From a virus, in the IMG/VR virus record IMGVR_UViG_3300040960_000961, positions 1-21,301 of that record: DNA of 21,301 nt; one strand, written 5' to 3'. Positions 1 through 18,794 of this stretch are shown piece after piece. The notes below the pieces were generated by a model. That model saw only the letters and a list, made by a program, of their open reading frames with translations. It did no database searches and was not told the DNA's origin. Each line of letters starts with the position of its first letter. The stretch's first letter is position 1. Both the position numbers and the translations under genes were made by a program.

Positions 1-78
1 AATATATTTAATATAGTAGCAATCAGAGAAGAGAATAAGGATTACATGATATTAGAATGTGTGAATTATGAGTATTAA
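1..78 (+). CDS. Head-closure / head-tail joining protein, C-terminal end (partial)
   Basis: The first frame is open from base 1 to a TAA at 76-78 and gives the last 25 residues of a gene that starts outside the window. The readable tail runs FNIVAIREENKDYMILECVN. This has the shape of the C-terminal strand pair of SPP1 gp16/HK97 head-tail joining proteins, where an I-x-G/A-V/I-R-E segment is followed by a hydrophobic strand. The position directly before a gp10-like gene is where head-closure proteins sit in siphovirus tail operons. It overlaps the next start by 11 bases, which indicates translational coupling. The identification rests on very little sequence plus context. Confidence 0.5.
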   Translation, partial: NIFNIVAIREENKDYMILECVNYEY

Positions 79-981: not shown

Positions 982-992
982 ATTAAAAAATT

Positions 993-1433: not shown

Positions 1434-1451
1434 AACTAAAATAAAAGACAG

Positions 1452-1805
1452 ATGTACAAAGAACTAAAAATACCAGGAAGAACTCTCTATGTGTCATTCA
1501 ATTTGCGAGTTGTTTTACAATTTCAAAAAGAATTTGCTAAAGAGGGTTCTTCCAATATTGACATAGAAAAATTAATCTCAGAAGTGGGATTAGAAGGTCA
1601 AATGAAGTTGTTCTATTTAGGATTAAAAGAAGGACACAGAAAAGCAAAGAAAGATTTTGACATGGAGTTTGATCCAGACTTCTTTGACTTTTTAGATGAC
1701 CATCCAGAGGCAATAGAGCAGATAGCTTCTGCTTTTAATGATAGTGTTCCTCAAGGAGATGGAGAACAAAAAAAAAGACAGACGAGAGCGAGAAAGAGCC
1801 AATAA
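1452..1805 (+). CDS. Tail assembly chaperone, short form (gpG-like)
   Basis: This 117-aa protein sits between the major tail protein and the tape measure gene, the slot of lambda gpG and its analogues, which bind the tape measure and recruit tube subunits. It has a helical acidic body ('FLDDHPEAIEQIASAFNDSV', about residues 77-97) and then a short hydrophilic, basic end (QKKRQTRARKSQ). That end is encoded just after a nine-A run at 1768-1776. The next reading frame (-1) is open through this region and continues into a second ORF, so the protein is expected in two forms: this one, and a frameshifted 244-aa form. The assignment rests on synteny and the slippery site, since these chaperones diverge quickly. 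Confidence 0.75.
   Translation: MYKELKIPGRTLYVSFNLRVVLQFQKEFAKEGSSNIDIEKLISEVGLEGQMKLFYLGLKEGHRKAKKDFDMEFDPDFFDFLDDHPEAIEQIASAFNDSVPQGDGEQKKRQTRARKSQ
1768..1776 (+). promoter_or_regulatory. Programmed -1 ribosomal frameshift site (A9 run)
   Basis: Nine consecutive A residues give the slippery pattern A-AAA-AAA in the frame of the upstream gene (CAA AAA AAA AGA). Slipping one base back at codon 1773-1775 resumes at AAG (1775-1777). From there the -1 frame has no stop until 2185. The in-frame product stops only ten codons after the run. The downstream ORF has no ATG near its beginning and no ribosome-binding site, so a frameshift is the natural way to express it. The layout copies lambda G/G-T, where a -1 shift fuses the two chaperone domains. 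Confidence 0.8.
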
Positions 1806-2185
1806 CAGAGGATTGGTTACAAAGAAAGTTGCTTGGGGAGTTGGGTTGGAGTATTGATGATTTTTATGATGCAGACTTTAGGATGGCTACAAATGCTATT
1901 ATAGGTATGATGAATGCAAGGTTTGAAGATATAAAAAATCAATACGAGATTGCGAGGTATAATGCAGCGTTAAATATTAATGTACATTTACCGAAAGGTA
2001 AGAGTATTAAGAATCCTAAAGAATTAGGAGAGTTTTCATGGGAAAAACCTACATCAAAGAAGAAAAACTTAACAAAAGAACAATTAGATAGTATTATGGA
2101 GAAAATGGAATCTCCAAAAATTGTTAAAAAAGAAAAGCTAGATGGCAGGGAACTTTCGAGATTTACTAATACGACTAGGACTTGA
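1775..2185 (+). CDS. Tail assembly chaperone, frameshifted extension (gpT-like)
   Basis: This -1 frame extension adds about 136 residues to the 108 residues read before the slip, giving a predicted 244-aa fusion. Right after the slip the sequence reads ESEKEPITEDWLQRKLLGEL, then GWSIDDFYDADF and a helix containing 'MATNAIIGMMNARFEDIKNQ'. 'LGELGWSxxDFYxxxF' is the kind of motif seen in the T domain of tail chaperones that contacts the tape measure protein. A separate start at 1829 would need TTG with no Shine-Dalgarno sequence and would cut off the conserved beginning. The end overlaps the tape measure start by 44 bases. Confidence 0.72.
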   Translation, partial: KTDESEKEPITEDWLQRKLLGELGWSIDDFYDADFRMATNAIIGMMNARFEDIKNQYEIARYNAALNINVHLPKGKSIKNPKELGEFSWEKPTSKKKNLTKEQLDSIMEKMESPKIVKKEKLDGRELSRFTNTTRT

Positions 2186-5165
2186 TGACAAAGAGTTTGT
2201 TGCCAAGTTTAACAAAGTTGAACGCCAATTAGTTAGTTTTAGCAATAATGCTCGTGATTTAGGCAAAACATTATCTACTAATTTAACACTTCCATTAGGA
2301 CTTGCTGCTGGAGCAGCAGTTAAGACATTTGCAGATTTTGATAGACTAGAGAAGGGTTTAGACGTTTTTGCAGACACATCTACATCTGGAGCAGAAGAAT
2401 TAGAGAAGTTGTTAGATGTTGTTAGAGATGCAAGAACTACTTTAGATTTAAAGAGTGCTGCTTCTGCCTCATTACAATTACAAGCGGTTGGTATTAGTGC
2501 TGATAGAGCAAGAGAAACTATTAAACAGTTAGGTATTGCTGCTACTGTTAGTGGATCTCAAGCGGAGGATATTGGGGAAATAACAAGACAGTTTGCCCAG
2601 GCATTATCTGTTGGTAGAGTATTGGAGCAAGATTTAAGGATTATTAAGTCAAGGATTCCAGCGATTGGTAAAGTATTACAAGAAGAGTTTGGTACAGTTA
2701 CTGCTGAAGGTTTAAGAGAGGCTAATATTAGTGCAGATGAATTTGTAGATAGACTTACTAGAGCAATTGCTTCTAATGAACAGTTCCAAAACGTACAAAT
2801 ATCATTAGCAAAAGCTATTGAAACATTTGGGATTAATACACAAATTGCTGCAAGTAAATTAGGTCAATTAATATCAGAAACACTTGACTTACCTAATTTA
2901 TTAAACAATATTACAAATCAAATAGATAGATTAACTAACTTCTTTACATCATTAAGTGAGCAACAGAGAAAGTCTATAGTTAATTTTGGATTACTTTTGG
3001 CTGCAATTGGGCCAGTAGTTTATACTGTAGGTACACTTGCTAAAGGAATAAGAATACTTTACAGAGGCATGATTGCTTTAGGATTAACTTCTTTAAATGT
3101 TATAAAGTATTTTAAAACATTAAATAGAGCATTAGTAATATTAACTACTACAACGAGGATTACTACAAGAGCTATGGTTGCATTTAACGTGATTGCTAGT
3201 CAATTACTTTTACCTTTAATTGCAATTGTAGGTGCGGTTACATTAGGTAAGGCTGCTTATGATAATTTTAAGAATAGTGTTGCTCAAGCTAACAGAGCAT
3301 TAGATGCTATAAATAAGGCAAATGAAGAGGCTAAATTAAGACATAATGAGGCTAGAGATTCTATTGCTGAATACATTACAGTTTTAGAAAGTTCTACTAC
3401 CTCTATTAATGATAAAATATTGGCATTAGCCGAATTAAATAGAATTACTAATAATCAATTTACTAGTGTTAGAATATTAGAGTCTGGAGTTGAGGGCTTA
3501 AAGGAAGCACAAGATTCTTATTTTAAGTCATTAGAAAATGTAGAGAAACTACGCATATTAAGCCAAGCACAACAAAAGTTAAAGGAAGATATAGAGCAGA
3601 CAAAGTTAAGTATGGAGTCTGCTACTGTAACTACAGAAAACTTTAAAACTGGTTTACAATTTGGTGCAGTTGCTGGTTCTACATTTACAAAGTCATTACA
3701 AGGATTAGGTAAAAAAACAAATAATGATTTAAAAATTTTAGAAGATAATCTAAAAAAGATTAATGAACAAATAGAGGTATTAGGCAAACAAAAAGCAGTT
3801 GAAAAATTTAAAAAAGATGCAGAGGAACTAGCAAAAAGTGTAGAAGAGGTTTATCGGAATTTAAGTGAATCATTAAATACAAAAGAAAGTTTAGGCTCAA
3901 TATTAGTTGTAGATAATATAGATACTGTTAAAGCACAAATTAAAGATGTTGAGAAAGCAATAACAGATGCATTTTCTAACAAAGAATTAAGAAAAACCAA
4001 TGTCATTCAAAAGCTACAAGTAATACTTGAAGATTTAAACAAAAAACTAAAAGAATTAGAGGCTAGAGAAAAAATTGTAAGAATATTTGAAGATTTAGAT
4101 GCTGAAATAACAACTTTAGAAAAGATAAGAGATATTCTTGGAGAAGATACTACAGAAAATATAAAAAAACAAATAGAGGCAGTTGGTAGTTCATTAGAAA
4201 AGGCAATAGAAGCTGGTGCATCTAAAAAAACTATAAATAAATTAAAACAAAGATTAGATGGATTAAGGGAATCTTTAAAACCATTATATCTTAAAGACCC
4301 TACAGTAATAGACAATCTACTTGTTTCATTTAACAACCTTAAAAAACCAACACTTGAAGTAGTAAGTAATGCTAATCAATTAGATTTTGAGTATAAAAAC
4401 GTAAATGGCACATTAGTAAAAGTTGCAAAAGGAACAAAAGAAGTCGCTGACTTAACTGCAAAAGCACAAGAATCTGCAAAAGAAACAGAGGAATCATTTA
4501 ATAGATGGTATAACGGACTAAATAAAGTAAATCAGTTTTTAGTAAGTAATATTGATGCAATAAAAAGATTTGCTGGTAGTATTTCAAGTGGATTAGTAGA
4601 TACAATAAGTGAAGCGTTTACGTTAAGAGCAGAGGCAAAACAAGAGTTAGTAGATGCAACAGAGAAGTTAAGGGCATTAAGAGCAAGTGGAGAGGCAAGT
4701 GCAAGTGAGATACAGAATGTACAAGACAGAATAATTGAGTTAAATCAAACAATTCAAGAAAATGACTTTTTTAGTGCTATAGGGCAGTCAATAAAGAAGT
4801 TAGTAATAGAGATTGGTAAAGCAATTGCTAAAGCATTAATTTTTGCTGGTTTACTTACTTTAATTGGAACTATATTTCCAGTATTTGGAGCAAGTATTGG
4901 AGTAGGAACAAAGGGTAATTTCTTAAAGTTATTTAGGGAGGGTTTACCTTTTGCTAATGGTGGATTAGTATATGGCCCAGTCAATGCGTTGATTGGAGAA
5001 GGACAAGGTACAAATAGAAGAAACCCAGAGGTTGTTGCTCCATTGGATAAGTTAAAAGGAATATTAGCAGAGAGTGGTGGAGGAAACATGGTATTAACTA
5101 GTAGGTTAAGTGGATCGGATTTATTATTGTCTGTAGAACGTGCAAAAAGAAATAGAGATAGATAA
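2142..5165 (+). CDS. Tape measure protein
   Basis: This 1007-aa protein is by far the longest of the tail module and sits directly after the chaperones. Residues 1-60 begin with 'FRDLLIRLGLDDKEFVAKFN', followed by the Ala/Gly-rich 'LTLPLGLAAGAAV' hydrophobic segment typical of tape measure N-termini. Residues 64-215 match the TIGR02675-type tape measure domain ('QAVGISADRARETIKQLG', 'SVGRVLEQDLRIIKSRIPAI'). Hydrophobic stretches lie at about 281-300, 350-370 and 895-925, with long charged coiled-coil helices between them (about 375-720 and 825-865). The C-terminus carries the common 'NGGLVYGP...LIGEGQG...NPEVVAPL' motif. It acts inside the tail as ruler and is probably ejected with the DNA. 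Its length implies a tail of roughly 150 nm by the usual 0.15 nm per residue rule (inference). Confidence 0.93.
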   Translation: MAGNFRDLLIRLGLDDKEFVAKFNKVERQLVSFSNNARDLGKTLSTNLTLPLGLAAGAAVKTFADFDRLEKGLDVFADTSTSGAEELEKLLDVVRDARTTLDLKSAASASLQLQAVGISADRARETIKQLGIAATVSGSQAEDIGEITRQFAQALSVGRVLEQDLRIIKSRIPAIGKVLQEEFGTVTAEGLREANISADEFVDRLTRAIASNEQFQNVQISLAKAIETFGINTQIAASKLGQLISETLDLPNLLNNITNQIDRLTNFFTSLSEQQRKSIVNFGLLLAAIGPVVYTVGTLAKGIRILYRGMIALGLTSLNVIKYFKTLNRALVILTTTTRITTRAMVAFNVIASQLLLPLIAIVGAVTLGKAAYDNFKNSVAQANRALDAINKANEEAKLRHNEARDSIAEYITVLESSTTSINDKILALAELNRITNNQFTSVRILESGVEGLKEAQDSYFKSLENVEKLRILSQAQQKLKEDIEQTKLSMESATVTTENFKTGLQFGAVAGSTFTKSLQGLGKKTNNDLKILEDNLKKINEQIEVLGKQKAVEKFKKDAEELAKSVEEVYRNLSESLNTKESLGSILVVDNIDTVKAQIKDVEKAITDAFSNKELRKTNVIQKLQVILEDLNKKLKELEAREKIVRIFEDLDAEITTLEKIRDILGEDTTENIKKQIEAVGSSLEKAIEAGASKKTINKLKQRLDGLRESLKPLYLKDPTVIDNLLVSFNNLKKPTLEVVSNANQLDFEYKNVNGTLVKVAKGTKEVADLTAKAQESAKETEESFNRWYNGLNKVNQFLVSNIDAIKRFAGSISSGLVDTISEAFTLRAEAKQELVDATEKLRALRASGEASASEIQNVQDRIIELNQTIQENDFFSAIGQSIKKLVIEIGKAIAKALIFAGLLTLIGTIFPVFGASIGVGTKGNFLKLFREGLPFANGGLVYGPVNALIGEGQGTNRRNPEVVAPLDKLKGILAESGGGNMVLTSRLSGSDLLLSVERAKRNRDR

Positions 5166-7096
5166 TGCCAGTAAAATTTAACAGTACATTCTATAGTGAC
5201 AAAGGAGCAGAATATATAATAGAGATTCATCAATCTACTTTTGTGGGCACTCCTACTGAATTTACTTGTCAAGGCATTGATATAAAATACGATGTGGGAG
5301 GAGATGAGGACAATAGATTTAATACTATAATTAGTAGTGAGGCATCTATAAGTATGCTAATTAACAATTCTACTTTAAATACTTTTGTAGAGGATTTGGT
5401 TAGTAGTTATGATGACACTTATTTTTTATATGTAAGAACGAATCAATTAAATTCAGAAACTACTTATAAATGGGTTGGTTATGTTTTAGTAGATTTAGTT
5501 ACTATTGAAGATATAAAGTTAGATGTAGGTTACACTTTTGTTTTAAGAGCAAAAGATGGATTGAATACATTAAAAACAATTGACTATAATAATGATGGTG
5601 TTCCATATACTGGCAAAGCTACTATATTTACTCATCTATATAATGTATTTTTAAAATTAGGAAGCGTAATTTATGCTTATACAAGTTTTACTGATCCTTT
5701 ATTTAGTGCGGTTATTAATTGGCACTCACAAGAATACACTTACTCCTCCACAAACACAGTATTAACTAAAGCAAGGATTCCACATAGAGCATTTTATCAC
5801 GTTGATACAAAGGGTAATTACGTTTACAAAAATTGCTATGAGGTTTTAGATGAGATATGTAAAGCATTTGGTTGTAGAGTTGTTGCATCGTCTACTGGTT
5901 ATTACATTACTCAAATAAACGAATACTTAAATGCAAATAATGTTTATGAGTATAATTATGTTGTTTTAGGTTCTTTAAGTGGTGGCAGTAAAGACTACAG
6001 TATTGACCATGACCAAACAGACATAATAAATACAGAAGTATATAGAGAGGGTGGTAGTGTATTTGAGTTCTTTAGTCCATTACAATATTCAAGAGTAGAG
6101 TATGAACATATAGCAACAAGAAATTTATTGAGTGGTGCGTATTGGGATTATAATTTTGAGGGGACTTATGACATAGAAGATATTGCTAGTAATAATTTAG
6201 ATTCTATTATTCAATTTGATTTTACACTTGCTTATTATACTGCATTTACGCAAACAGTAGCTACTACAGTTTGGAATAGGCATTATGTTATATATAGAAT
6301 ACAGATTGCATTAGAAGATTCATTTGGAAATACGCATTATTACCAAAACGATTTTACATGGCAACGGAGTAAAGTAAAAGAAGATGGGTTGAGGAATCAA
6401 AGATGGAGTACAACTGAAGGGTATTATTACATATATCAATTAGTAGAAGATCCAAGTCAACCAGAAAGAATAGAAAATATTCAATTGATTATACCCAATG
6501 TACCAGTTGATGGAGATATGACTGTAAAGTTTGAGTTTTACAGAGTTTATATAGAAAATTATATCGACCCAGCTGCTGCTATATTGCAAGGTGGGTCAGT
6601 TCCTGTTCTTCAAGATTATTACACAGTAACGTATCAAGTTGCAAACACTTTTATGCAATACATTCATACTGGTTTCTTTACTGACCAAAACGATATTATT
6701 AGATTCCAGGCTGACAATGACAATAAAGCATATAAAACTTATGAGGTTACTACAATAATAGGAGATGGCCCTAACTTAAACAGTCCTGGGCATTTAGAAG
6801 TTAAGAATGATTCTGATGAATGGGTAATTGCAGAGAATGGATGGAAGGTTGGTAATAGTGGAGATGCAAAGAATATTAGTCAATTATTGTGTAATGAAGT
6901 AATAAAGGGTCAGTTAAAGCCAGTCCGTAAGTTTATGGAAACTACATTTGTTATGACTAATCCAGATACAAGATTTCTTCAGCCACATTACGCAATTAAT
7001 TATAATGGTAATTATTGGGTGTTTCATGGAGGTAGATACAACTTAGCAGATGATAGTGTAACTGGTGTATGGTATCAAATTAAAGAGGACGAATAA
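5165..7096 (+). CDS. Distal tail / tail-tip (baseplate) structural protein
   Basis: This 643-aa soluble, beta-rich protein lies immediately after the tape measure gene, where the distal tail protein (Dit) and tail-associated lysin/hub (Tal) are encoded. It is rich in Tyr, Asn and aromatic residues. The N-terminal 120 residues ('KFNSTFYSDKGAEYIIEIHQ', then 'YKWVGYVLVDLVTIEDIKLD') have an alternating-strand pattern like the beta-sandwich of distal tail proteins. No peptidase or lysozyme motif is visible. It shares TAATG-type junctions on both sides with the tape measure and the repeat protein, so the three are translationally coupled. The exact role (Dit, hub or fused both) is not resolved from sequence. 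Confidence 0.6.
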   Translation: MPVKFNSTFYSDKGAEYIIEIHQSTFVGTPTEFTCQGIDIKYDVGGDEDNRFNTIISSEASISMLINNSTLNTFVEDLVSSYDDTYFLYVRTNQLNSETTYKWVGYVLVDLVTIEDIKLDVGYTFVLRAKDGLNTLKTIDYNNDGVPYTGKATIFTHLYNVFLKLGSVIYAYTSFTDPLFSAVINWHSQEYTYSSTNTVLTKARIPHRAFYHVDTKGNYVYKNCYEVLDEICKAFGCRVVASSTGYYITQINEYLNANNVYEYNYVVLGSLSGGSKDYSIDHDQTDIINTEVYREGGSVFEFFSPLQYSRVEYEHIATRNLLSGAYWDYNFEGTYDIEDIASNNLDSIIQFDFTLAYYTAFTQTVATTVWNRHYVIYRIQIALEDSFGNTHYYQNDFTWQRSKVKEDGLRNQRWSTTEGYYYIYQLVEDPSQPERIENIQLIIPNVPVDGDMTVKFEFYRVYIENYIDPAAAILQGGSVPVLQDYYTVTYQVANTFMQYIHTGFFTDQNDIIRFQADNDNKAYKTYEVTTIIGDGPNLNSPGHLEVKNDSDEWVIAENGWKVGNSGDAKNISQLLCNEVIKGQLKPVRKFMETTFVMTNPDTRFLQPHYAINYNGNYWVFHGGRYNLADDSVTGVWYQIKEDE

Positions 7097-8214
7097 TGAG
7101 TTTTACAGAGAAATCACTAGTTTATTTGTCTAAAGAATATCGAATTGTTCCAAATTATGGGGCAGTAGGATCAAGTGCATCTGCTGGTGGTGCGGTTGTT
7201 ACCGATAATGAAGTAGTACAAACACCTCAATCGCCTGGCTTTATATACCAAGAAGTATTTATTGCTGATGGTGTAAATAAGTCATATACAGTAACAGAGA
7301 ATGGAGGTCAGTTATCAGAAGTAAGTACAGATATTAATGTATACAGAAATGGTTTGTTGTTAAATGATACATACATTTCTTCTCTTGATTCAGTAAACGG
7401 AACATTTGAGTTGACATTTATTCCAGATTTAGATGATAGAATTAGTGTAGTTTGGTTTGTTAAAAACACTACAGTTGAGGGTAATATTTTCCAAGAGGTA
7501 TTTACTGCTAATGGTTCTACTGCTACATTTACTGTTACAAAGAATGGAGGATTAATACCTACACGAAAGCAAGAGTTGTTTATATATATAAATGGTATCT
7601 TTTTAGATTATGAAAAAGTAACTACATATAGTCCAAGTTTAGGTCAGTTTACGTTAAACTTTACACCAGGTGGTGATGACACATTAGCTGCGGTTTGGTT
7701 TGTAGATATTCCACAAAATGTAAAGATTATTCAAGAACAGTTTATTGCTGATGGAACACAAACTACTTTTACTGTCACAAAGAATGGAGGAGAGTTAGCA
7801 AAAACTAAAGATGCTATTTTATTAATGAGAAATGGTCAGCATATTAATAATGACTATATAACTGGTATAAATACAAGTAGTGGAACAATTACTTTAACGT
7901 TTGCTCCGGATCAAGGAGATGATATTACTTTAATTTGGTTTGTTGAAGAAATAGTTACTCCTACAAATAGCAATGCTTTTGCTATGTTCCAAGAAGAATT
8001 TACTGCGGATGGTATTAGCCCAACATTTACAGTTACACAAAATGAAGGCAAATTACCAGAGTTGTTATCTAGTATTATGATATATAGAAATGGTCAGTAC
8101 ATATCTAATAGTTTTATTAGTTCGCATGATTATATTAGTGGAAGTATAACTTTTGGGTTTATTCCAAGAAGTGGAGAAAAAATAACAATAGTATGGGTAT
8201 TAAGCAATTTATAA
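7096..8214 (+). CDS. Four-repeat tail protein (fibre shaft or receptor-binding candidate)
   Basis: This 372-aa protein has a 48-residue Gly/Ala-rich lead followed by four homologous units of about 75 residues, at residues 50-123, 131-203, 211-283 and 297-369. Each opens with (I/M)-[FIY]-Q-E-x-F-x-A-[DN]-G, then 'FTVTKNGG', a central Y/L-R/I-N-G turn, and ends with D-x-[IL]-x-[VLI]-[VI]-W-[FV]. The units look like small all-beta domains of the kind used as tail-tip ornaments or sugar-binding modules. An AGAGGA-like sequence 9 bases before the ATG is one of the few Shine-Dalgarno-like elements in the window. The gene overlaps the next one by 22 bases. The function is inferred only from architecture and its place between tail tip and fibres. 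Confidence 0.6.
   Translation: MSFTEKSLVYLSKEYRIVPNYGAVGSSASAGGAVVTDNEVVQTPQSPGFIYQEVFIADGVNKSYTVTENGGQLSEVSTDINVYRNGLLLNDTYISSLDSVNGTFELTFIPDLDDRISVVWFVKNTTVEGNIFQEVFTANGSTATFTVTKNGGLIPTRKQELFIYINGIFLDYEKVTTYSPSLGQFTLNFTPGGDDTLAAVWFVDIPQNVKIIQEQFIADGTQTTFTVTKNGGELAKTKDAILLMRNGQHINNDYITGINTSSGTITLTFAPDQGDDITLIWFVEEIVTPTNSNAFAMFQEEFTADGISPTFTVTQNEGKLPELLSSIMIYRNGQYISNSFISSHDYISGSITFGFIPRSGEKITIVWVLSNL
7243..8202 (+). repeat. Four tandem ~240-base protein-coding repeats
   Basis: The four units encode the 'QEx-F-x-A-D/N-G ... FTVTKNGG ... VWF' domains described for the host gene. Repeat periods are about 80-86 codons, including 7-13 codon linkers. The units differ clearly at the nucleotide level, so the duplication is old and held by selection on protein structure rather than by recent slippage. 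Confidence 0.85.
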
Positions 8215-10229
8215 GTAAGTTTAAATTAGTTTTAATTCTGTTAGGGTTCGTTCCTTTATTCGTAACTGGGCAGAATTATCCGCGATTCGAATTATACCAG
8301 TTAAAACAAGGTACGGATAGTGGGCAATTTATCGTAACTGGATTAGATTCGAATTTAGCATTTAATAACATATTGCGATTTCGAAGTGCTGACAGTACGC
8401 TATTAATTGGGTTGGATACGGTTGCCGTTAAATCTGATATTATATCAAGTTCGTTTATTTTCGATGCTGGATTGGGTATTGAGATTGAACAGGATGGTGA
8501 TACTTATTTATTTGAATCGCTTTCGATTGAGGATTCGATTAAAAACCAGACAGGAACATTAATTGAAAAAGGTACGCCACTATATGCAACAGGAGTTCAA
8601 GGCAACTATTGGACAGTTGCTCCAGCAGACGCTTCCGATCCGAACAAGATGCCAGTCGTAGTAATTGCTGGAGAAGATATTGCAGATGGTGGTACTGGAT
8701 TGGGTTTAATTAAAGGTCACATTAAGCAAGTATCTACTACTGGATTAGCGGATGGAGCTGAAGTGTATGTAGCGAGTGGGGGTGGTTATACGAGTACAAA
8801 ACCGACTGCGGAAGGAGTTATAATTCAGAGATTGGGTACGGTAATTAAAGGTAATAGTGCGAATGGTTCTGGTATAATTAATTTAGGAGACGAGGCGTAT
8901 TGGAATGATTATGTAGATAGGACAGAATTAGGAGATAGTTTAACTATAATTAGAGCAGATATACCATCTTTAACTGGTGTAGTGTTGACAACAACAGACC
9001 AATCTATTAGCGGAGTTAAATCTTTCCAAGATGATGTTAGTATTGATGGTGCATTGGATATTGCATATAGAGGCAATACATATTTAGGCAATTATGCTGG
9101 TAATGGAATAAGACAAGATTTAACAACTGCAAGAAATGTAATTATTGGAACAGAAGCGTATTTCACAGAAAATTATGCTAATGATAATGTTGTAATTGGG
9201 TATTTTGCTGGAAGAAATACAGAGTATGGTAGTAATGTAATTATTGGAAGCAAAGCAAATTATTTTACAAGTCCTTCCTATGTAATAGCTTCTAATGCAG
9301 TTGTAATTGGTAAGAGTGCAAAAACTACTACATCGCAGAGTGATAATTCAATTGTAATTGGGGCTAATGCTACTGGGTTGGGAGATGATACGGCAGTAAT
9401 TGGAGATGGGCAAATGACTAAATTAAATTCAAATAAATATACATTTAATGTTGACCAAGATACAACAGGGAAAAATGGTTATTTATTAGGTTTAAACAGT
9501 AGTAGTGGTGAGATTGAATTGCAAAGTTTAGGGGGAACGGCAGTATTAACAACAACTGACCAAACAATAGATGGAGTTAAAACTTTTAATGATACTATTG
9601 TAGGTATTATAGATAATGCAGCAGCAGTAGATATTCAATATGTATCAAGTGAAAGTTATTATCCAGCATTAATTAGTAATAATATAGGACAAAATTTTGT
9701 TCGCCTTAATACTAACATTAAATACGACATGACTAATAATGAGTTCACTATGGATAACTATGTATTTGATGTTGATGAAACATTAACAGGGAAACAAGGT
9801 CAAGTATTAACATTAAACTCAAGTGATGTAATTGAATTATCTCCTATAACATCTTATCATACATTAACCGCTACAATAAGAGATCAAGCATCCGATAGTG
9901 TAGTTATAATGACAATACCAACAGAATATATTGGATGTCAAATAGTAGAAACAACACAGTCATATTTTGCTGACAATTGGACTGGAGCAAGTGCGGTTAC
10001 TTTAGGTTCTATATCTGGTTCAACTTATACTAATAATGGTAATTTAATAACTGAAGTAGTTAGTAATGCTACTGGTTACAATTCTTTAGTCAGAAATACT
10101 ACTGGAGGAGTTTATGTTTATCCATACACAATTACAAGTACGGCTAAATATATTAAAATGAATCGCCCAGCATCTACTAGCGGAAGCGTAAAAACAATAA
10201 CAAATGCTATTACAATTAAATGTAATTAA
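8193..10229 (+). CDS. Secreted-type tail fibre / adhesin 1
   Basis: This 678-aa protein begins with a clear signal peptide: basic MGIKQFISKFK, hydrophobic LVLILLGFVPLFV, then TGQ at residues 25-27. Residues 28-85 form a segment related to the next two proteins. Residues about 119-217 resemble DUF2190-type phage decoration/fibre modules ('GTLIEKGTPLYATGVQGNYW'). Two 'VLTTTDQ(S/T)I-x-GVK(S/T)F' fibre repeats sit at about 264-278 and 450-464. YadA/Hia-head-like N-V-[VI]-I-G repeats lie at about 314-405, and a beta-rich C-terminal domain with two Cys closes the protein. Trimeric fibre architecture is likely. The start overlaps the upstream gene by 22 bases and no other ATG is close, so the leader is probably real. 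Why a virion fibre would carry an export signal is unclear. Confidence 0.7.
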   Translation: MGIKQFISKFKLVLILLGFVPLFVTGQNYPRFELYQLKQGTDSGQFIVTGLDSNLAFNNILRFRSADSTLLIGLDTVAVKSDIISSSFIFDAGLGIEIEQDGDTYLFESLSIEDSIKNQTGTLIEKGTPLYATGVQGNYWTVAPADASDPNKMPVVVIAGEDIADGGTGLGLIKGHIKQVSTTGLADGAEVYVASGGGYTSTKPTAEGVIIQRLGTVIKGNSANGSGIINLGDEAYWNDYVDRTELGDSLTIIRADIPSLTGVVLTTTDQSISGVKSFQDDVSIDGALDIAYRGNTYLGNYAGNGIRQDLTTARNVIIGTEAYFTENYANDNVVIGYFAGRNTEYGSNVIIGSKANYFTSPSYVIASNAVVIGKSAKTTTSQSDNSIVIGANATGLGDDTAVIGDGQMTKLNSNKYTFNVDQDTTGKNGYLLGLNSSSGEIELQSLGGTAVLTTTDQTIDGVKTFNDTIVGIIDNAAAVDIQYVSSESYYPALISNNIGQNFVRLNTNIKYDMTNNEFTMDNYVFDVDETLTGKQGQVLTLNSSDVIELSPITSYHTLTATIRDQASDSVVIMTIPTEYIGCQIVETTQSYFADNWTGASAVTLGSISGSTYTNNGNLITEVVSNATGYNSLVRNTTGGVYVYPYTITSTAKYIKMNRPASTSGSVKTITNAITIKCN

Positions 10230-10230
10230 A

Positions 10231-12174
10231 ATGAAACGAATATTAATCATATTAGGTCTATTCGCATCGGTAACAACCTTTGCCCAATCGCCCAGGATCA
10301 AACTGAATCAGATTACAAAAGACACGGTTAAAGGTTCGGTTCTAATTAGCTCTCCATCCGATTCTGGAATGGTTTATTCACGAGATTTTTATGTCGCATA
10401 CGGAGCGGATACGGTTCTGATTCTGTACGGAGACACATTAGCAGCCACATCTGGAATAATTAGTTCGGTTTTATCCGATGGTGTGACCATTACCGGGGAC
10501 GGAACGAGTGGGAATGAATTGAAGGTGGATACGGCTACGGTTATAAGTACGATACAAGGCTTGGTAGATTCTTTATCTAATTACGTTACTTTATCTGGAA
10601 CAGAAACGATTTCAGGAGCAAAGACCTTTACATCGGATTTAAATGTAGATGCCAAGATAGCGTTGAATGCTGGAGATGACAATATCGTAATCGGAGATGG
10701 TGCTGGTGCGAGTTTAGTTAGTGGTCAAGCATTAGGGAATTTGTTAGTTGGAAAGGGTGCTGGTGCTGCAATAAATAGTGGGGATTATAACGTAGCAACT
10801 GGTTATGAAGCGTTATATTCCGCAACAACAGCTTCTAATAACACAGCGAACGGTTTTCAAGCGTTATATTCCACCACAACAGGGAGTGATAATGTAGCTA
10901 ATGGTTATTATGCATTACGTTCCAACCTATCCGGAGATCGTAATTTAGCCAACGGTTGGGTAGCTTTGTATAACCTCAATTCTGGTTCAGACAACCAAGG
11001 CTACGGTTTTCAAGCTGGTCGATATTTATTTGATGGCACTACTGCATTAACAACTGCCAACGGTTCATTATTTCTTGGTAATAACACAAGAGCATCCGCA
11101 AATGGAAACAGTAACGAAATAGTCATAGGTACGGATGCGATAGGTAATGGAAGTAACTCTGTAACAATAGGTAATGATGGAACGATAGGTACTGCTACAA
11201 GTAAAACTATATTGAATGGTAACATAGGAATTGGTACGACAACTAATAATGGTGCTAAAGTTGTATTTAAAGGGGCAAATGCAATACCTGCTACAACAGG
11301 AACTACAACAACTGCAATTTTAAGATTATCAAGCGGAACAGGTTTATACAATGTTTTAGATTTTGGAACAAATGAAGCAGAAGATTATTCTTGGATACAA
11401 TCAACGAGAGCAAATAGTTTAGCAATTTATGATAGATTATTAATTCAGCCAAATGGTGGTGCAGTTAGAATAGGCGGAACAGCTGCAACATCTTACAAAT
11501 TACTTGTTGATGGGACACTTGGAGTTACAGGAGCAGCTACCTTTTCGAGTAATGTTACGGCAAACGGCAACGTAGGAATTGGTACTAGTAGTCCTCAAGC
11601 TATACTTCATGTTTCAAATGGAGGGGCTGAAGGCATTGAATTTGGTTCAGGATATGTACCCGGTGCAAACTTATTTCAGAATTATAATAGGGCAACAAGT
11701 CAATTTGTTAAAGAAGTGCATTATGCTTCTGAATATCAATTTTGGACTGGCAACGTAGGAATTGAAACGACTTCACCATCCTACAAACTTCATGTTAATG
11801 GTTCTGTTGCAGGTGTAGGAGCATATAATAACTTATCTGATGTTAATTATAAAAAGAATATAAATGATTTAGAATTAGGATTAGATATAGTTAAACAGTT
11901 AAGACCGATAACATATAATTGGATTAATGAAGAATATGGTACAAGAACTAATATTGGTTTTATTGCCCAAGAAGTAGAATCTGTATTACCTAACATAGTA
12001 ACAACAGCTGATGATAATGTTAAATCTATGGCTACAACAGATTTAATACCAATACTAACTAAAGCTATTCAAGAACAACAAACGATTATAGAAACCCAAG
12101 AACAAAAGATACAAGAATTAGAAACTCTACTACAAACTTTAGTAAGTAGAATAGAAACATTAGAAAATAAATAA
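10231..12174 (+). CDS. Secreted-type tail fibre 2 with S74 intramolecular chaperone
   Basis: I choose ATG 10231 rather than the in-frame ATG at 10204. It lies two bases after the previous stop and begins a perfect Bacteroidota signal peptide, MKRILIILGLFASVTTFAQ. The product is 647 aa. A 'SGTETISGAKTFTSDLNV' fibre repeat (about 122-139) follows the N-terminal domain. YadA-head-like repeats 'N-x-A-x-G-x-x-A-L-Y-x-x-x-T/N' fill about 151-317, and 'GNVGIGTSSPQ' fibre repeats come later. The end is a Peptidase_S74 (endosialidase-type) chaperone starting at Ser536. The sequence SDVNYKKN keeps the Ser and the Lys five residues later that make the self-cleavage dyad. A C-terminal coiled coil (about 610-647) would trimerise the chaperone. 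Confidence 0.8.
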   Translation: MKRILIILGLFASVTTFAQSPRIKLNQITKDTVKGSVLISSPSDSGMVYSRDFYVAYGADTVLILYGDTLAATSGIISSVLSDGVTITGDGTSGNELKVDTATVISTIQGLVDSLSNYVTLSGTETISGAKTFTSDLNVDAKIALNAGDDNIVIGDGAGASLVSGQALGNLLVGKGAGAAINSGDYNVATGYEALYSATTASNNTANGFQALYSTTTGSDNVANGYYALRSNLSGDRNLANGWVALYNLNSGSDNQGYGFQAGRYLFDGTTALTTANGSLFLGNNTRASANGNSNEIVIGTDAIGNGSNSVTIGNDGTIGTATSKTILNGNIGIGTTTNNGAKVVFKGANAIPATTGTTTTAILRLSSGTGLYNVLDFGTNEAEDYSWIQSTRANSLAIYDRLLIQPNGGAVRIGGTAATSYKLLVDGTLGVTGAATFSSNVTANGNVGIGTSSPQAILHVSNGGAEGIEFGSGYVPGANLFQNYNRATSQFVKEVHYASEYQFWTGNVGIETTSPSYKLHVNGSVAGVGAYNNLSDVNYKKNINDLELGLDIVKQLRPITYNWINEEYGTRTNIGFIAQEVESVLPNIVTTADDNVKSMATTDLIPILTKAIQEQQTIIETQEQKIQELETLLQTLVSRIETLENK

Positions 12175-12186
12175 ATTAATATACTT

Positions 12187-12882
12187 ATGAAAACAGCATT
12201 TCACATCGTTATTTTTACTGTTCTTTTTCTTATTACGTCTACTGTAAAAGGACAGATTCCTGACACAATTTATATAGAATCTTATAACTCTGAAAGTTCT
12301 GTTGTGTTAGGTTTATTACAGTCATCGGGAACATCTGATGCTACTATATCTTCTGATTATTATATTTTGTATGAAGGTACATACTATCCAAATATAGAGC
12401 AGACTGTAATATCTCCTATTGATAGAAGGTTTACAACACAACAGGCTGTAGATTATTTAGTTAAGTTGATAGAAACGGTAGAGAGTAGGATTTGGTATAA
12501 CCAAGCCACAGTCTTAAAAAATTTAGATGTGAATGAGATATACCCAACGGTTAATAGATTATTAGATTCTTTGGGTAGTAGTGGTTATTATGCTGTTATG
12601 GCTGATAAGTACGGTAGTAATTTTGATGGAATTTGGCAGGTAGATGTAGGGGATGTTAGTTATTATTTAGATTTTACTGAAACAGGAGTTGTTACTGAAG
12701 TAGATAGTAGTTTTGTTCCGCTCCCCCAAAAAAGTGCGGGAGCGTACCTCATAAAAACTTTAGGAAGATTTGTACTAACTAATATAGAAGGTTTACCAAC
12801 CCCTATAACCTTTACAAAAAGTTTAGATAGTAGTTTTTACTACAATGAAACTAAAACTATTAAAATACAAAAATTACTGTAA
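12187..12882 (+). CDS. Secreted-type protein 3 of the fibre cluster, unknown function
   Basis: This 231-aa protein has a signal peptide (MKTAFHIVIFTVLFLITSTVKGQ) and then a segment (residues about 25-75) of the same general pattern as the start of the two preceding fibres: a Ser-rich stretch followed by '(S)SDYYILYEG'. The middle has a helix 'QQAVDYLVKLIETVESRIWY' (about 79-99), and the rest is beta-rich. No S74 chaperone or fibre repeats are present. Residues about 178-188 are encoded by an unusually GC-rich palindromic stretch. It may be a short accessory fibre tip or a secreted effector. I do not recognise the family. It ends three bases before the next gene. Confidence 0.6.
   Translation: MKTAFHIVIFTVLFLITSTVKGQIPDTIYIESYNSESSVVLGLLQSSGTSDATISSDYYILYEGTYYPNIEQTVISPIDRRFTTQQAVDYLVKLIETVESRIWYNQATVLKNLDVNEIYPTVNRLLDSLGSSGYYAVMADKYGSNFDGIWQVDVGDVSYYLDFTETGVVTEVDSSFVPLPQKSAGAYLIKTLGRFVLTNIEGLPTPITFTKSLDSSFYYNETKTIKIQKLL
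12719..12744 (+). repeat. GC-rich 7-bp inverted repeat inside a coding region
   Basis: CGCTCCC (12719-12725) is the exact reverse complement of GGGAGCG (12738-12744), separated by 12 bases. It stands out in a very AT-rich gene and uses codons (CTC, CCC, GCG) rare elsewhere here. There is no T-tract behind it, so it does not look like an intrinsic terminator. Confidence 0.6.
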
Positions 12883-13140: not shown

Positions 13141-16100
13141 ATGCGTACCATAGGTAATCTAACAATATCAGGTTCATTAAATACAAGTGGTTCTATAAGA
13201 GCAACTACCTTTATAGGAGTTGTGAGTTCTTCTGCCCAACTTTCTACAGAGATATCAGGAGCATTTACGTCTACCTCTGCCTCACTTGCTTCTGATATAC
13301 AGAACAATGATACACGATTATCTACCTTGGAGGGTAAGACCTTGGTGAGTTCTTCTGCACAAATATCTTATACAGGTATTACAGATATACCTAATGGGAT
13401 TGTGAGTTCTTCTGCCCAACTTTCTATAACAGAATCCCAAATAAGTGATTTAACTCATTATACTAACTCCGATACTTTATCTTATATTAATAGTATAGGA
13501 GTTGTATCAGGTTCTGCTCAAATAACTCTTTCTTCTGCTACAGGTAATTTAACAGCAGTAAGAATATCAGATTTTGATACAGAGGTTTCTAATAATACTT
13601 CTGTAGTTGCAAATACAGCAAAAGTAGGTTATACAGATGCTTTAGTTAAAGCAAAACTGAATACAGAGTCTGTTTTAAGTGGTTCTATTACATCTGCTAA
13701 AATAACAGATGTAGATGCATTTTCACAATCAGGAACTTATGCTAATTTAAGAGCGCAAGGAACTACAGCATCTGATGTTGGTTTAGGTAATGTTACAAAC
13801 GAGTCTAAGGCAACGATGTTTACAAATGCTGCTTTGACAGGAAATCCAACAGCACCTACCCAAACAGGAACTGACGATTCTACTAAAATTGCAACAACTG
13901 CATTTGTACAGGGTAGAATTGATACTATAATAGGAACTGCGGGTTCTGCATTAGATACGTTAGGAGAACTGTCAGCTTCGTTATCTAATGACCAAGATGC
14001 TTTAGTTTCACTTACCACTACGGTAGGTACTAAATTAGCAAAATCTTCAAACTTATCAGATTTAACAAATGTTGTAACAGCAAGGACAAACTTAGGATTA
14101 GGTACTGCTGCAACAACAAATTCTACCGCTTATGCTACGGCAGCTCAAGGTACTAATGCTGATACTGCTTACAGTTGGGGAGACCATTCTTTAGAAGGAT
14201 ACACAACTTGCATAGGTGATATAACAGGAGTAACAGCAGGAACAGGACTCACAGGAGGAGGTACAAGTGGAACAGTAACCGTATCTCACGCTGATACGTC
14301 TACATTAACAGGTGCGCAAGGTAGTGCAGGTATAGCATCTATCACAGTAGATGCTTTAGGTCACGTTACGGCTGTAACAACAGCAACATATTGCACTACA
14401 GACACTAATACCACTTATACCGCAAATGAAATGCTTACTTGCATTAAGACTGTGGATGGAGCAGGTAGTGGACTTGATGCGGATACTTTGGATGGTTTAG
14501 ATTCTTCTCAATTTTTGAGAAGTGATACTTCTGATACGTTCAATGGAACTCTATCTGTATCGGGTAATATTGAATCATCAAATCAAATATCTGTTAATAA
14601 CAGAACAGCTATTTCAGTTGCACATTGGTCAGCTCCTTCGACAACTACAGGTGCTATAAAAATACAAATACCTGGTTTGCATATTGGCAATTATAGTATG
14701 TTAGTATTGAGAATTACTGTATATGAATATAACTCAACAGCTGCTACAATTTACTATGTTTCAGGACATGATTGGACATCAGGATGGTATAATAATGGAG
14801 TTATAAAAATCGGTAATGGAAACAAAGATATAAGTTTAGGTTATGATTCTAATTATGATTATATTATAGTAGGTGATACATCATCTTCTTGGTCTTATGG
14901 GCATGTAACCGTAGATGTAATGTCTCATCCAAGTTTCTATAGTAGCCTGATGGATATTACATCAGGATGGAACATAACCCAAGAGACATCACTATCAGGC
15001 ATTACAACTCAGAGTGTAATAAATAAAAGAGTGCTTACAACATCAGATGAAGGGTCAGGAAATGGACTTGATGCAGACTTATTAGATGGACAACAAGGTT
15101 CTTATTATTTAGATTATAATAACTTTACTAATAAACCTACAATACCCACCAATAACAACCAACTTACGAATGGGGCAGGGTACTGTACAACAGATACTAC
15201 TTATACCGCAAATGAAATGCTTACTTGCATTAAGACTGTGGATGGAGCAGGTAGTGGACTTGATGCAGATTTGTTGGATGGTAATCAAGCAAGTGCGTTT
15301 TATTTAGCTACAAACCCAAGTGGATACACAACTTGTACAGGAACTCTAACAGGCACAGGAACATCAGGATATATATCAAAGTGGAATGGAAGTACATCTC
15401 AAACTAATTCTGTTATTTATGATAATGGTACAAACGTAGGAATTGGTACGACTAATCCTTTATCTAAATTGCAAGTTGGTACAAGAGGAACTAATAGTGC
15501 TTTATCGCTTGGGCTTACTGATGCTATTTTATTTGATTTTTACAATGATAATTCTCCTTTTAAAAGACACGGAGTAATAATATCTCAAGCTGCAGACGCA
15601 AGTGAGTCTGTTTTGGATTTTAATACAAAAGCAGCCAACGGAACAAATACCACTAAGATGACTATTTTAGGAAACGGCAACGTAGGGATAGGTACTACTA
15701 CTCCTGCTGCGAACTTGGATGTAAATGGGAGTGGTAGATTCAACGGTAGCTTAATAGTAAATACTGGTAATATACTTAGTTTAGACCAAAATTATAATGT
15801 GCATGGATATCTAAAATTCTCAGTTACCGACTTTGGAAGTGAAAATTCTTTTGGAATGTATGGTTATTATGGCCTTGCTTTTCAGACAAGGCAAGGCATA
15901 GGAATTGTACTTAAAGGAAACTCTAACAACGTAGGTATAGGTACTACGTCTCCATCCACCAAACTTGAAGTGAACGGTACAGCTACAGTTACTACCATTG
16001 TAGAAACATCTGCATTAAGATTTAAGGAAAATATAAATACTATAGAAGATACATCTATTATAGATAAGTTAAGACCTGTCTCTTTTGATTGGAAAGACTC

Positions 16101-16290
16101 TAAAGAAACAGAATATGGGTTTATAGCAGAAGAAGTTTATGATTTAGATACTACTCTTGTTACAAAAAGTGGGGAAGATGAACTACAAGGTGTAAAGTAC
16201 ACAAAACTAATACCTCTACTTGTTAAAAAAGTGCAGGAGCAGGACAAACAAATAAATAAACTAAAAGATTTACTAAATGGCAACACTTAA
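13141..16290 (+). CDS. Long tail fibre with S74 intramolecular chaperone
   Basis: This 1049-aa repetitive fibre has no signal peptide. Residues about 27-130 carry 'VSSSAQ(L/I)' repeats, the first two encoded by 27-bp identical stretches. Residues about 195-360 contain standard phage fibre units such as 'DVGLGNVTNESK', 'NAALTGNPTAPTQTGTDDST', 'LGLGTAATTNST' and 'TAYSWGDHSLEGYTT'. Repeats with regularly placed Cys follow, at about 360-475 and 675-755 ('YCTTDT', 'EMLTCIKTVDGAGSGLDAD'), and then three 'N-V-G-I-G-T-T-x-P' repeats. The C-terminus is a Peptidase_S74 chaperone from Ser957 (SALRFKEN), which keeps Ser and Lys five residues apart, followed by 'GFIAEEVYDLD' and a terminal coiled coil. 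It should trimerise and self-cleave. It overlaps the next gene by 14 bases. Confidence 0.85.
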   Translation: MRTIGNLTISGSLNTSGSIRATTFIGVVSSSAQLSTEISGAFTSTSASLASDIQNNDTRLSTLEGKTLVSSSAQISYTGITDIPNGIVSSSAQLSITESQISDLTHYTNSDTLSYINSIGVVSGSAQITLSSATGNLTAVRISDFDTEVSNNTSVVANTAKVGYTDALVKAKLNTESVLSGSITSAKITDVDAFSQSGTYANLRAQGTTASDVGLGNVTNESKATMFTNAALTGNPTAPTQTGTDDSTKIATTAFVQGRIDTIIGTAGSALDTLGELSASLSNDQDALVSLTTTVGTKLAKSSNLSDLTNVVTARTNLGLGTAATTNSTAYATAAQGTNADTAYSWGDHSLEGYTTCIGDITGVTAGTGLTGGGTSGTVTVSHADTSTLTGAQGSAGIASITVDALGHVTAVTTATYCTTDTNTTYTANEMLTCIKTVDGAGSGLDADTLDGLDSSQFLRSDTSDTFNGTLSVSGNIESSNQISVNNRTAISVAHWSAPSTTTGAIKIQIPGLHIGNYSMLVLRITVYEYNSTAATIYYVSGHDWTSGWYNNGVIKIGNGNKDISLGYDSNYDYIIVGDTSSSWSYGHVTVDVMSHPSFYSSLMDITSGWNITQETSLSGITTQSVINKRVLTTSDEGSGNGLDADLLDGQQGSYYLDYNNFTNKPTIPTNNNQLTNGAGYCTTDTTYTANEMLTCIKTVDGAGSGLDADLLDGNQASAFYLATNPSGYTTCTGTLTGTGTSGYISKWNGSTSQTNSVIYDNGTNVGIGTTNPLSKLQVGTRGTNSALSLGLTDAILFDFYNDNSPFKRHGVIISQAADASESVLDFNTKAANGTNTTKMTILGNGNVGIGTTTPAANLDVNGSGRFNGSLIVNTGNILSLDQNYNVHGYLKFSVTDFGSENSFGMYGYYGLAFQTRQGIGIVLKGNSNNVGIGTTSPSTKLEVNGTATVTTIVETSALRFKENINTIEDTSIIDKLRPVSFDWKDSKETEYGFIAEEVYDLDTTLVTKSGEDELQGVKYTKLIPLLVKKVQEQDKQINKLKDLLNGNT
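13220..13246 (+). repeat. 27-bp direct repeat in long fibre, copy 1
   Basis: This stretch, encoding the VSSSAQLS unit, is identical to 13400-13426. The spacing is exactly 180 bases (60 codons), and a degenerate third unit lies near 13345. It reflects duplication of a shaft module. Confidence 0.8.
13400..13426 (+). repeat. 27-bp direct repeat in long fibre, copy 2
   Basis: Second exact copy of 13220-13246, in the same reading frame, encoding VSSSAQLS in the long fibre. Confidence 0.8.
14413..14480 (+). repeat. 68-bp direct repeat in long fibre, copy 1
   Basis: This stretch encodes the TYTANEML-TCIKTVDGAGSG-LDA unit and is identical at all 68 positions to 15199-15266. Perfect identity against otherwise diverged fibre repeats points to recent duplication or gene conversion. 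Confidence 0.85.
15199..15266 (+). repeat. 68-bp direct repeat in long fibre, copy 2
   Basis: Second exact copy of 14413-14480, in the same frame and 786 bases downstream (262 codons). Recombination between the copies would delete an in-frame shaft segment. Confidence 0.85.
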
Positions 16291-17879: not shown

Positions 17880-18794
17880 ATGAGTTTTGACAGTCAAGAA
17901 AAGTTTGTAATTTTCCACATTGCAGGTGGAGTAGGTAAACATATTGCAGCAACAGCTGTGTTAGAAGGTATTAATGATAAATACCCAGACAGAAAACTAA
18001 TTGTAGTATGTGCTTGGACAGAAGTATTTGAATTTCATCCATTAGTAGATAGAGTTTATCAGTTAGGTAATACCGATTACTTTTATCAAGATTATATTGA
18101 AGGTAAAGATGTTGTAATACTTATGCACGACCCTTATCATGTTACAGGACATATAAAACAGGAACAGCACTTGATTAAAAGTTGGTATGAATGTTTAAAT
18201 CTTGACTATAATAACCAACTACCTAAGTTGTACAGTTCTTATAGAATAAGAGAAATTGTATTGCAGAAGTTTAGAAGAAACAAGCCTATTATGCTTATTC
18301 ACAGTAATGGTGGTATGATACCTAATGATAATGAAGTTAATCCTTACAACATTAAAAGTTGGGCAAGAGATATGCCTTTAAGTCTTGTACAGAAATTAGT
18401 AGATAAATATAAAGATACATATCATATTATGCAGGTTTGTAAGCATAAGAATAACTTAGTACAGGGTGCAGAGTATGTACAAACACACTCTTTATTAGAG
18501 TTGTTTACTTTGTTAAGATTGACTACTAAAAGAATTTTAATAGACAGCTCTTTGCAACATGCAGCAGCTGCTTATCAGTTACCTTCTGTTGTTTTATGGA
18601 ATACAACATCACCTAATGTATATAGCTATGATATACATAAGAATGTTTTATCTAATAAAGAAAAACTAACAGCAAAAAATAGAACAACCTATTTCGAAGA
18701 GTATGCAATAGATGGCAACCCTTTACAATGTCCTTATGAAGATGAGGATATATTTGATTTTGAAGAAGTTACAGAACTCGTAGATAAATTATAA
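17880..18794 (+). CDS. Glycosyltransferase family 9-like (heptosyltransferase-type) protein
   Basis: This 304-aa protein has the two-lobed GT-B pattern of ADP-heptose:LPS heptosyltransferase relatives. Residues 10-30 read 'VIFHIAGGVGKHIAATAVLE', corresponding to the GT9 N-terminal G-(D/G)-x-[LIV] acceptor-side loop. Residues 137-145 contain 'IMLIHSNGG'. 'SWARDMPLSLVQKLVDKY' (160-177) matches the K-x-W-x-x-x-x-x-x-x-L family segment. The nucleotide-sugar site appears as 'IDSSLQHAAAAYQLPSVVLW' at 221-240, in the place of GT9 'D-[ST]-x-x-x-H-x-A-[AG]-A'. It may glycosylate virion fibres or alter host surface glycans. The donor and acceptor cannot be read from sequence. It follows the fibre-assembly genes closely and ends before a 138-base gap. 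Confidence 0.72.
   Translation: MSFDSQEKFVIFHIAGGVGKHIAATAVLEGINDKYPDRKLIVVCAWTEVFEFHPLVDRVYQLGNTDYFYQDYIEGKDVVILMHDPYHVTGHIKQEQHLIKSWYECLNLDYNNQLPKLYSSYRIREIVLQKFRRNKPIMLIHSNGGMIPNDNEVNPYNIKSWARDMPLSLVQKLVDKYKDTYHIMQVCKHKNNLVQGAEYVQTHSLLELFTLLRLTTKRILIDSSLQHAAAAYQLPSVVLWNTTSPNVYSYDIHKNVLSNKEKLTAKNRTTYFEEYAIDGNPLQCPYEDEDIFDFEEVTELVDKL

Follow-up and report, generated by a model that had tools for sequence, protein, structure and literature searches.

Genes with export signals in the window

The stretch of DNA analysed here, which we call the window, is a single linear IMG/VR contig of 21,301 bases (record IMGVR_UViG_3300040960_000961, positions 1 to 21,301). It contains three adjacent genes, P1, P2 and P3, that each begin with a predicted signal peptide (leader), and two of these genes encode phage fibre proteins. 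The three genes and all their parts given below are on the plus strand. P1 (8193..10229) is a leader-bearing fibre protein of 678 amino acids, with the predicted mature start QNYPRFELYQL. P2 (10231..12174) is a leader-bearing fibre of 647 amino acids, counted from the leader ATG. It has the mature start QSPRIKLNQI, fibre repeats and a C-terminal S74 domain. P3 (12187..12882) is a leader-bearing protein of 231 amino acids with the mature start QIPDTIY, and is not a fibre.

The leader of P1 has 26 amino acids (8193..8270; MGIKQFISKFKLVLILLGFVPLFVTG then Q; predicted cleavage VTG-Q), that of P2 has 18 (10231..10284; MKRILIILGLFASVTTFA then Q; TFA-Q) and that of P3 has 22 (12187..12252; MKTAFHIVIFTVLFLITSTVKG then Q; VKG-Q). 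Each N-terminus consists of a short basic stretch and a hydrophobic core, with a small residue at position -1 and glutamine (Gln) at +1. Gln at +1 is the Q-rule of Bacteroidota, according to PMC5837995. P1, P2 and P3 fit the Q-rule for a signal peptidase I substrate, with cleavage predicted in front of the Gln. Because the Gln at +1 follows this rule, the hosts are most likely Bacteroidota. An initial reading made without database searches (the sequence-only reading) had reported three adjacent genes with signal peptides ending VTGQ, TFAQ and VKGQ, and all three satisfy the leader test described below.

We looked for signals of other export routes. None of the three window proteins has a cysteine at the cleavage site, as in a signal peptidase II lipobox. 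In the P1 relatives of two related contigs, L002 (9744) and L021 (13029), the leader ends in a lipobox-like SC right before the Gln; these two proteins might be lipoproteins instead of signal peptidase I substrates. For the C-terminal domain of type IX secretion, no family was found for P1 to P3 in NCBIfam (E-values up to 10), for P1 and P2 in Pfam (up to 0.1) or for P3 in Pfam (up to 10).

Mis-called start codons, which the sequence-only reading had named as a possible flaw, can be rejected for the window genes. From the leader ATG to mature positions +35 in P1, +29 in P2 and +18 in P3, there is no in-frame ATG, GTG or TTG. The leader ATG of P2 is at 10231, and the mechanically determined start of its open reading frame (ORF) is at 10204. 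Some relatives have start codons nearer to the cleavage site, e.g., at +2 in a gene for 1188 amino acids in contig L053, and at +8 in the P1 gene of L024.

Conservation of the leader

We scored leaders with a rule set made for this analysis, which requires Gln at +1 and so prefers Q. The sequence-only reading had asked whether homologues keep the leader. They do so almost without exception: across the window and its related contigs, the test is positive for 41 of 42 such genes (near-duplicate contigs included). By comparison, it picks out two of the 286 other ORFs with a length of 70 amino acids or more, both of them tape-measure genes read from an internal start, and 39 of 8400 shuffled N-termini. 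Some leader-like start occurs in 22 of the 286 other ORFs, mostly without Q. The test flagged neither the leader of P3 in L024 nor that in L093, and both read as leaders by eye.

The leader varies while the start of the mature protein is conserved. With cleavage sites set by hand and the mature start taken as its first 30 residues, the mean pairwise identity in P1 is 0.44 for the leader versus 0.78 for the mature start, and the leader is lower in 75 of 78 pairs. The corresponding values are 0.53 versus 0.67 in P2 (lower in 47 of 55 pairs) and 0.64 versus 0.69 in P3 (41 of 66 pairs). Leader length among relatives ranges from 15 to 28 amino acids.

Searches with only the mature part recovered a leader at 12 of 12 P1 loci, at 6 of 6 P2 loci and at 15 of 16 P3 loci, where the leader of L024 was recognized by eye and the sixteenth locus (L062) is truncated by the end of its contig. 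With the holin as query, 16 loci were found, 11 on contigs already known and five new. Three of the new ones have a leader fibre (L093, by eye, and L099 and L100, which are overlapping duplicates), and the contigs of the other two, L094 and L103, do not reach the place of the leader fibre. Across these genes, the leader tracks an N-terminal domain (PR-h-x-h-x-Q-h, then G-Q/S), not the fibre modules.

No Q-leader was found on the fibre or tail genes that we looked at in seven control isolates: immuto (90000-160410 of 160410), Cellulophaga phage phi38:1 (1-50000 of 72534), phi18:1 and phi12:1 (both whole), P12024L (1-35000 of 35652), P2559S (1-40000 of 44988) and P12002L (1-45000 of 48689). Among their other ORFs, phi38:1 and P2559S have a single Q-leader match each, and phi18:1 and phi12:1 share a weak one.

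A glycosylation motif in the mature proteins

In Bacteroidota, exported proteins receive O-glycans at D-S/T when the next residue is A, I, L, V, M or T, as described in PMC8729774 and PMC12871550. We scored D[ST][AILVMT] in comparison with shuffled sequences, using the mature part of leader proteins. The 25 leader and 34 leaderless proteins were hand-picked and include some that stop at the edge of a contig. We counted 206 motifs in the 25 mature leader proteins versus 101 in shuffles. In a non-redundant set of 15 of these proteins, there are 100 occurrences versus 49 (z 7.3). The 34 leaderless tail and fibre proteins have 93 versus 100, and 173 other ORFs of at least 150 amino acids in related contigs have 230 versus 208. 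A residue of the motif set follows D[ST] in 100 of 156 cases, and other S/T in 669 of 1690. The reversed motif is not enriched (51 versus 48). The doubling of the motif in mature leader proteins is a second sign of export. The most motifs in the set, 44, were observed in a leader-bearing fibre of 2733 amino acids in contig L108 (354-8555), whose C-terminus is S74-like by eye.

The sequence-only reading had also suggested that fibre-like proteins are exported. Together, the conserved leaders, the Q-rule and the doubled O-glycosylation motif support this prediction well.

The encoded proteins

P1 has a weak fibre motif, and the structure model of its N-terminal region has a predicted local distance difference test score (pLDDT) of 37. 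Residues 117-240 (8541..8912) form a domain that is common to leaderless fibres and has a weak PHROG match to head decoration (E 0.0067). This domain is 50% identical to gp052 of Flavobacterium phage immuto and 43% identical to a 474-amino-acid fibre of the myophage contig L019, both of which are leaderless. Contigs L006-L017 add 12 more ORFs with this domain, which are leaderless or cut at the N-terminus. P2 has many matches to tail-fibre PHROGs. Its Peptidase_S74 (endosialidase chaperone) domain (11836..12000; Pfam PF13884, E 1.6e-16) bears out the earlier claim of an S74 chaperone in one of the proteins. The window P1 and P3 gave no S74 match.

P3 is not fibre-like. No family was found for it in Pfam, NCBIfam or PHROGs. 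It is 22-30% identical to 12 relatives, and in most of them it adjoins the holin gene on the 5′ side. All 12 listed genes have PD[ST]I at the mature start, with S and T interchanging. An AlphaFold2 model of P3 (mean pLDDT 81, predicted template modelling score 0.71) has helices and a small C-terminal beta barrel. Among viral models, one match was found at E 1e-6 (A0A516L8Z3), with a template modelling score of 0.41 and a root-mean-square deviation (rmsd) of 20.4.

The sequence-only reading, which described three fibre-like proteins, is only partly confirmed: the description stands for P1 and P2 but not for the third protein. It had also described the N-terminal segments as related. Those of P1 and P2 match each other weakly in BLAST, while that of P3 has no BLAST match to either.

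Gene order and lineages

Immediately upstream of P1 is P4 (7096..8214, plus strand), a leaderless tail protein with four repeats of ~75 amino acids (QEVFIADG..FTVTKNGG), the last of which ends the protein. The P4 gene overlaps the start of P1 by 22 nucleotides. In siphophage contigs, the gene order is tail tip, P4 (with three or four repeats), one or two leader fibres, P3 and, in most contigs, the holin. The holin was identified by PHROG in L024 (E 9.3e-05) and by alignment in other contigs. A Q-leader gene encoding 195 amino acids follows P3 in the holin's place in L055 (1575-2162), L056 (1171-1758) and L062 (631-1218), and has no Pfam or NCBIfam match. An amidase occurs further 3′ in L054 (PHROG); judged by eye, L058 and L059 have one as well.

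Four lineages have leader fibres: the siphophages, the myophage, a group of L093 and L099/L100, and L053/L054. The lineage of L093 and L099/L100 has other portal and head proteins, and it includes L108, with leader fibres of 2733 and at least 848 amino acids. The head, portal, sheath and tail proteins tested have no BLAST match across the four lineages, and the holin is common to three of them. In the siphophages, in the myophage L019 and in the third lineage, the gene just 5′ of the first leader fibre encodes a protein with the P4 repeat at its C-terminus. This P4-type gene and the first leader fibre overlap by 13-22 nucleotides, in one frame relation wherever both start codons were assigned correctly.

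The fibres of two close relatives, L004 and L036, differ much more than their tails. The identity between the two is 0.99 in the tail tube, 0.87 in the tape measure, 0.99 in the baseplate, 0.98 in P4 and 0.95 in P3. By comparison, it is 0.55 in P1 residues 1-240, 0.35 in the distal part of P1 and 0.44 in the distal part of P2. This divergence, seen in one pair, is the pattern expected of receptor-binding proteins.

A join of two phages within P2

The window joins two phages. Its bases 1-10707 resemble the siphophage contig L002 (85% DNA identity), and bases 1-8441 resemble the contig L021 (92%). The tail terminator, major tail protein and tape measure encoded on this left side are those of a siphophage. 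From 11732 onward, the window resembles the myophage contigs L019/L020 at 99.9%, with two mismatches between 12174 and the last base. In L019, a tail sheath gene (E 8e-6) and a gene for the major head protein (E 1e-57) were found, and from these matches we read it as a T4-like myophage. The DNA of P2 matches L002 from its start to 10707 and the myophage in its 3′ part; from 10708 to about 11770 the window has a long DNA match to neither. Up to residue 336, P2 has 53% protein identity to the P2 of L002.

The join is at about 11770, from where the myophage contigs L019/L020 match onward. The switch from one phage to the other sits within a fibre repeat, just 5′ of the S74 domain of P2. An assembly chimera is the most likely explanation; a true recombinant, e.g., at an S74 module common to the two phages, is less likely. 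The join does not weaken the leader finding, because whole leader trios are present in L002, L004, L024, L036 and L053/L054, and because the myophage carries its own leader fibre, of 889 amino acids, directly 5′ of P3. On the myophage side, a leaderless S74 fibre (13141..16290, plus strand) provides a contrast case, i.e., S74 without a leader.

Some other genes deserve mention. Window bases 18933-19151 encode a protein of 72 amino acids with a lipoprotein-like leader (LSSC) and a weak match to a PHROG of unknown function (E 0.061); it could be an outer-membrane lysis protein. Related genes, with 64.6% DNA identity over 746 columns and a PHROG of unknown function, occur at 17880-18794 in the window and 2235-3209 in L019. 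By eye, their products look like heptosyltransferase-type glycosyltransferases. Two more small Q-leader proteins are encoded in a 102-kb myophage contig (L084 14243-14647 and L087 14837-15232). A small leader-type gene lies right after the presumed major head protein in L003 (482-919), L024 (3368-3808) and L088 (9920-10378), with Gln at +1 in L088 only.

Interpretation and alternatives

Judging by the leaders and their conservation, it is very likely that P1 and P2 are exported out of the cytoplasm, and O-glycosylation of the exported proteins is likely. The leader fibres probably leave the cell interior, and they may pick up host sugars before acting. We propose that the host Sec pathway carries P1 and P2 out of the cytoplasm, where signal peptidase I would remove the leader and the new N-terminal Gln would cyclise to pyroglutamate. 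Late in infection, both proteins would be O-glycosylated, fold and trimerise in the periplasm. P3 would be exported alongside them as a partner or helper. At lysis, the matured fibres would meet released virions, dock through the short conserved N-terminal strand (PR-h-x-h-x-Q-h) and act as strain-specific receptor-binding fibres; this docking and its consequence are the least certain steps. The whole chain, from Sec export through periplasmic maturation to docking on virions at lysis as receptor-binding fibres, is plausible, but its odds are somewhat below even. In its most far-reaching form, the reading is that several Bacteroidota phage lineages build their variable receptor-binding fibres outside the cytoplasm, using Sec, signal peptidase I and O-glycosylation with host glycans, that these fibres join virions only at lysis, and that they occupy a swappable, export-tagged slot. 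We assign this reading a probability of roughly 0.37.

The main competitor concerns the destination of the exported fibres. They could remain at the outer membrane or within the periplasm of the infected cell, where they would occupy or alter receptors against re-adsorption and rival phages, or serve as cell-cell adhesins; the sequence-only reading had named receptor blockers, decoys and adhesins of this kind. The export signals fit such an envelope role, and the leader genes lie between tail tip and holin in two lineages. The N-terminal tag and P3 vary less than the tail tip does, and both are present in siphophage and myophage. There is also a working analogue, the T5 protein Llp, a periplasmic lipoprotein that jams FhuA (PMC9586334). 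However, masking of the phage's own receptor predicts fixed fibre parts with a fixed tail tip, and L004 and L036, which share 98-99% of P4 and baseplate, differ in exactly those fibre parts, although this is one pair. Moreover, the window genes lack a lipobox, and no type IX signal was found. We regard an envelope role as a credible, if tentative, possibility. Joining to virions at lysis is favoured because the fibre parts are exchangeable, because the neighbouring gene ends in the P4 repeat and because the siphophage contigs, which are incomplete, showed no other fibre-like gene in their gene lists. Between the two destinations, we lean slightly towards virion joining.

The remaining alternatives are improbable to different degrees. 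Secreted S74 proteins are common in Bacteroidota and the leader type matches the host phylum, so the genes could have been captured from secreted S74 or adhesin proteins of the host, with their function kept; the sequence-only reading had raised a recent capture of this kind. Yet relatives of P3 or of the P2 N-terminal domain were absent from genome contigs in two exact-pattern scans, which could miss remote relatives, the P1 fibre domain matches leaderless phage fibres, and the genes keep a fixed position beside tail genes in several lineages. Capture is thus unlikely. Similarly doubtful is a secreted set with a separate task, e.g., as an inhibitor or surface modifier, with P3 as the effector and the fibres as its carriers. 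The closest PDB structures to the P3 model are small exported barrels (the metalloprotease inhibitor Inh and others, compared for an 8-strand Inh/I38 or lipocalin-like fold; best Z 7.8, rmsd 3.9 over 83 residues), but such Z values are within the tool's usual background, and Foldseek found no PDB match at an E-value of 0.001 or below. The sequence-only reading had further offered the uncut leader as a hydrophobic peg in the virion, i.e., an anchor or membrane-piercing element. Although a hydrophobic N-terminus on tail-encoded proteins could serve this end, the leader varies in sequence and length while the Q after it and the mature start hold, the Q-rule fits signal peptidase I, and a motif of exported proteins is enriched. 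These properties make the peg very unlikely. A translation artefact, either from wrong starts or from a frameshift fusion of P4 and P1 with the leader as an internal linker, is the least credible of all. The constant frame relation of the overlap and the start codons near the cleavage site in some relatives would be compatible with it, but the three window genes have no usable start there, and window P2 and P3 do not overlap P4. As to the P4-P1 fusion itself, we rejected it: the P1 frame of L019 is closed two codons upstream of the ATG, and no common slip site was found.

Several observations weigh against the preferred reading, that of fibres finished outside the cytoplasm and joined to virions at lysis. 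No signal for crossing the outer membrane was found. The search patterns for P1 and P3 contained the mature Q, and the myophage has leaderless fibres beside its leader fibre. In isolates, tblastn found no relatives of the window P3 (E-values up to 10) or of the P3 of L024 or L053 (up to 1), nor of the L053 P2 N-terminus, the L024 baseplate protein or the 195-amino-acid protein of L055; two of the searches each gave a single chance-level match. The arrangement with P4 also has exceptions. In L053/L054 it is a leader protein that contains the P4 repeat, and in L058 the repeat is missing from the end of the gene upstream of the leader fibre, a gene truncated by the start of the contig. The swap of fibre parts was seen in one close pair, and the distal part of P1 is 0.83 identical between the window and L002, like the tail (0.84-0.91). 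Conservation of the N-terminal tag relative to the tail points in the same direction. Between L036 and L024, the identity is 0.90 in the P2 N-terminal domain and 0.88 in P3 versus 0.34 in the baseplate and 0.49 in P4. Between L036 and L039, the tag is identical (1.00) versus 0.50 for P4 and 0.44 for the baseplate. A tag that varies less than the tail tip, and that is shared by phages whose tails are unrelated, speaks for P3 or a component of the host envelope as its partner, which would fit these data as well or better, and hence for receptor masking or surface display.

The glycosylation motif is likewise open to a competing explanation. In the non-redundant leader set, other patterns are also elevated (D[AV][ST] 1.96-fold, E[ST][AILVMT] 1.57-fold and D[NG][AILVMT] 1.35-fold), and G[ST][AILVMT] is elevated in both sets (1.22 in leader and 1.45 in leaderless proteins). 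Because these control patterns rose too, part of the motif excess may be an effect of strand sequence. In addition, the L019 leader fibre alone has one motif versus 3.3 in shuffles.

Comparison with known systems

Ordinary phage tail fibres assemble in the cytoplasm. Like other S74 phage tail fibres, P2 and several of its relatives have a C-terminal S74 domain and fibre repeats. In contrast to P2, the S74 fibre on the right part of the window and those of the isolates looked at are without a leader. Among the open-access literature matches listed, we found no report of Sec leaders on phage tail fibres.

Phage-encoded Q-rule leaders have a precedent in Porphyromonas gingivalis prophages, in which PMC10367356 describes five genes of unknown function with Q-rule signal peptides. 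Those genes are likewise phage-encoded and have a Bacteroidota signal peptidase I leader with Gln at +1. Unlike the set in that account, the proteins described here are fibres with tail-fibre modules and S74, occur in four lineages and are enriched in a glycosylation motif. The T5 Llp protein is similar in that it is an exported phage protein acting on a receptor from the periplasm (PMC9586334). However, Llp as described there is a small lipoprotein, whereas the leader proteins have about 200 to 2733 amino acids and those of the window lack a lipobox, so the likeness is at most one of how they would work.

As in the Bacteroidota O-glycosylation substrates of PMC12871550 and PMC8729774, the D-S/T-hydrophobic motif is over-represented here in proteins predicted to be outside the cytoplasm. 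The substrates presented in those two papers are bacterial proteins, and the word 'phage' does not occur in their main texts. The tail proteins of Bacteroides phages with diversity-generating retroelements, covered in PMC6199706, resemble the leader fibres in being variable binding proteins of Bacteroidota phages.

The individual parts, i.e., S74 fibres, Q-rule leaders and the O-glycosylation motif, are thus known. What appears to be new is their combination, which conflicts with how fibre assembly is usually understood. A conserved, phylum-specific leader on fibre genes of several phage lineages, together with an enriched host motif, means that some virions complete their assembly outside the cytoplasm, or else that fibre adhesins are displayed on the infected cell. 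Either outcome, if true, would alter the interpretation of host range and superinfection for Bacteroidota phages, and annotation of these proteins as ordinary cytoplasmic fibres would mislead.

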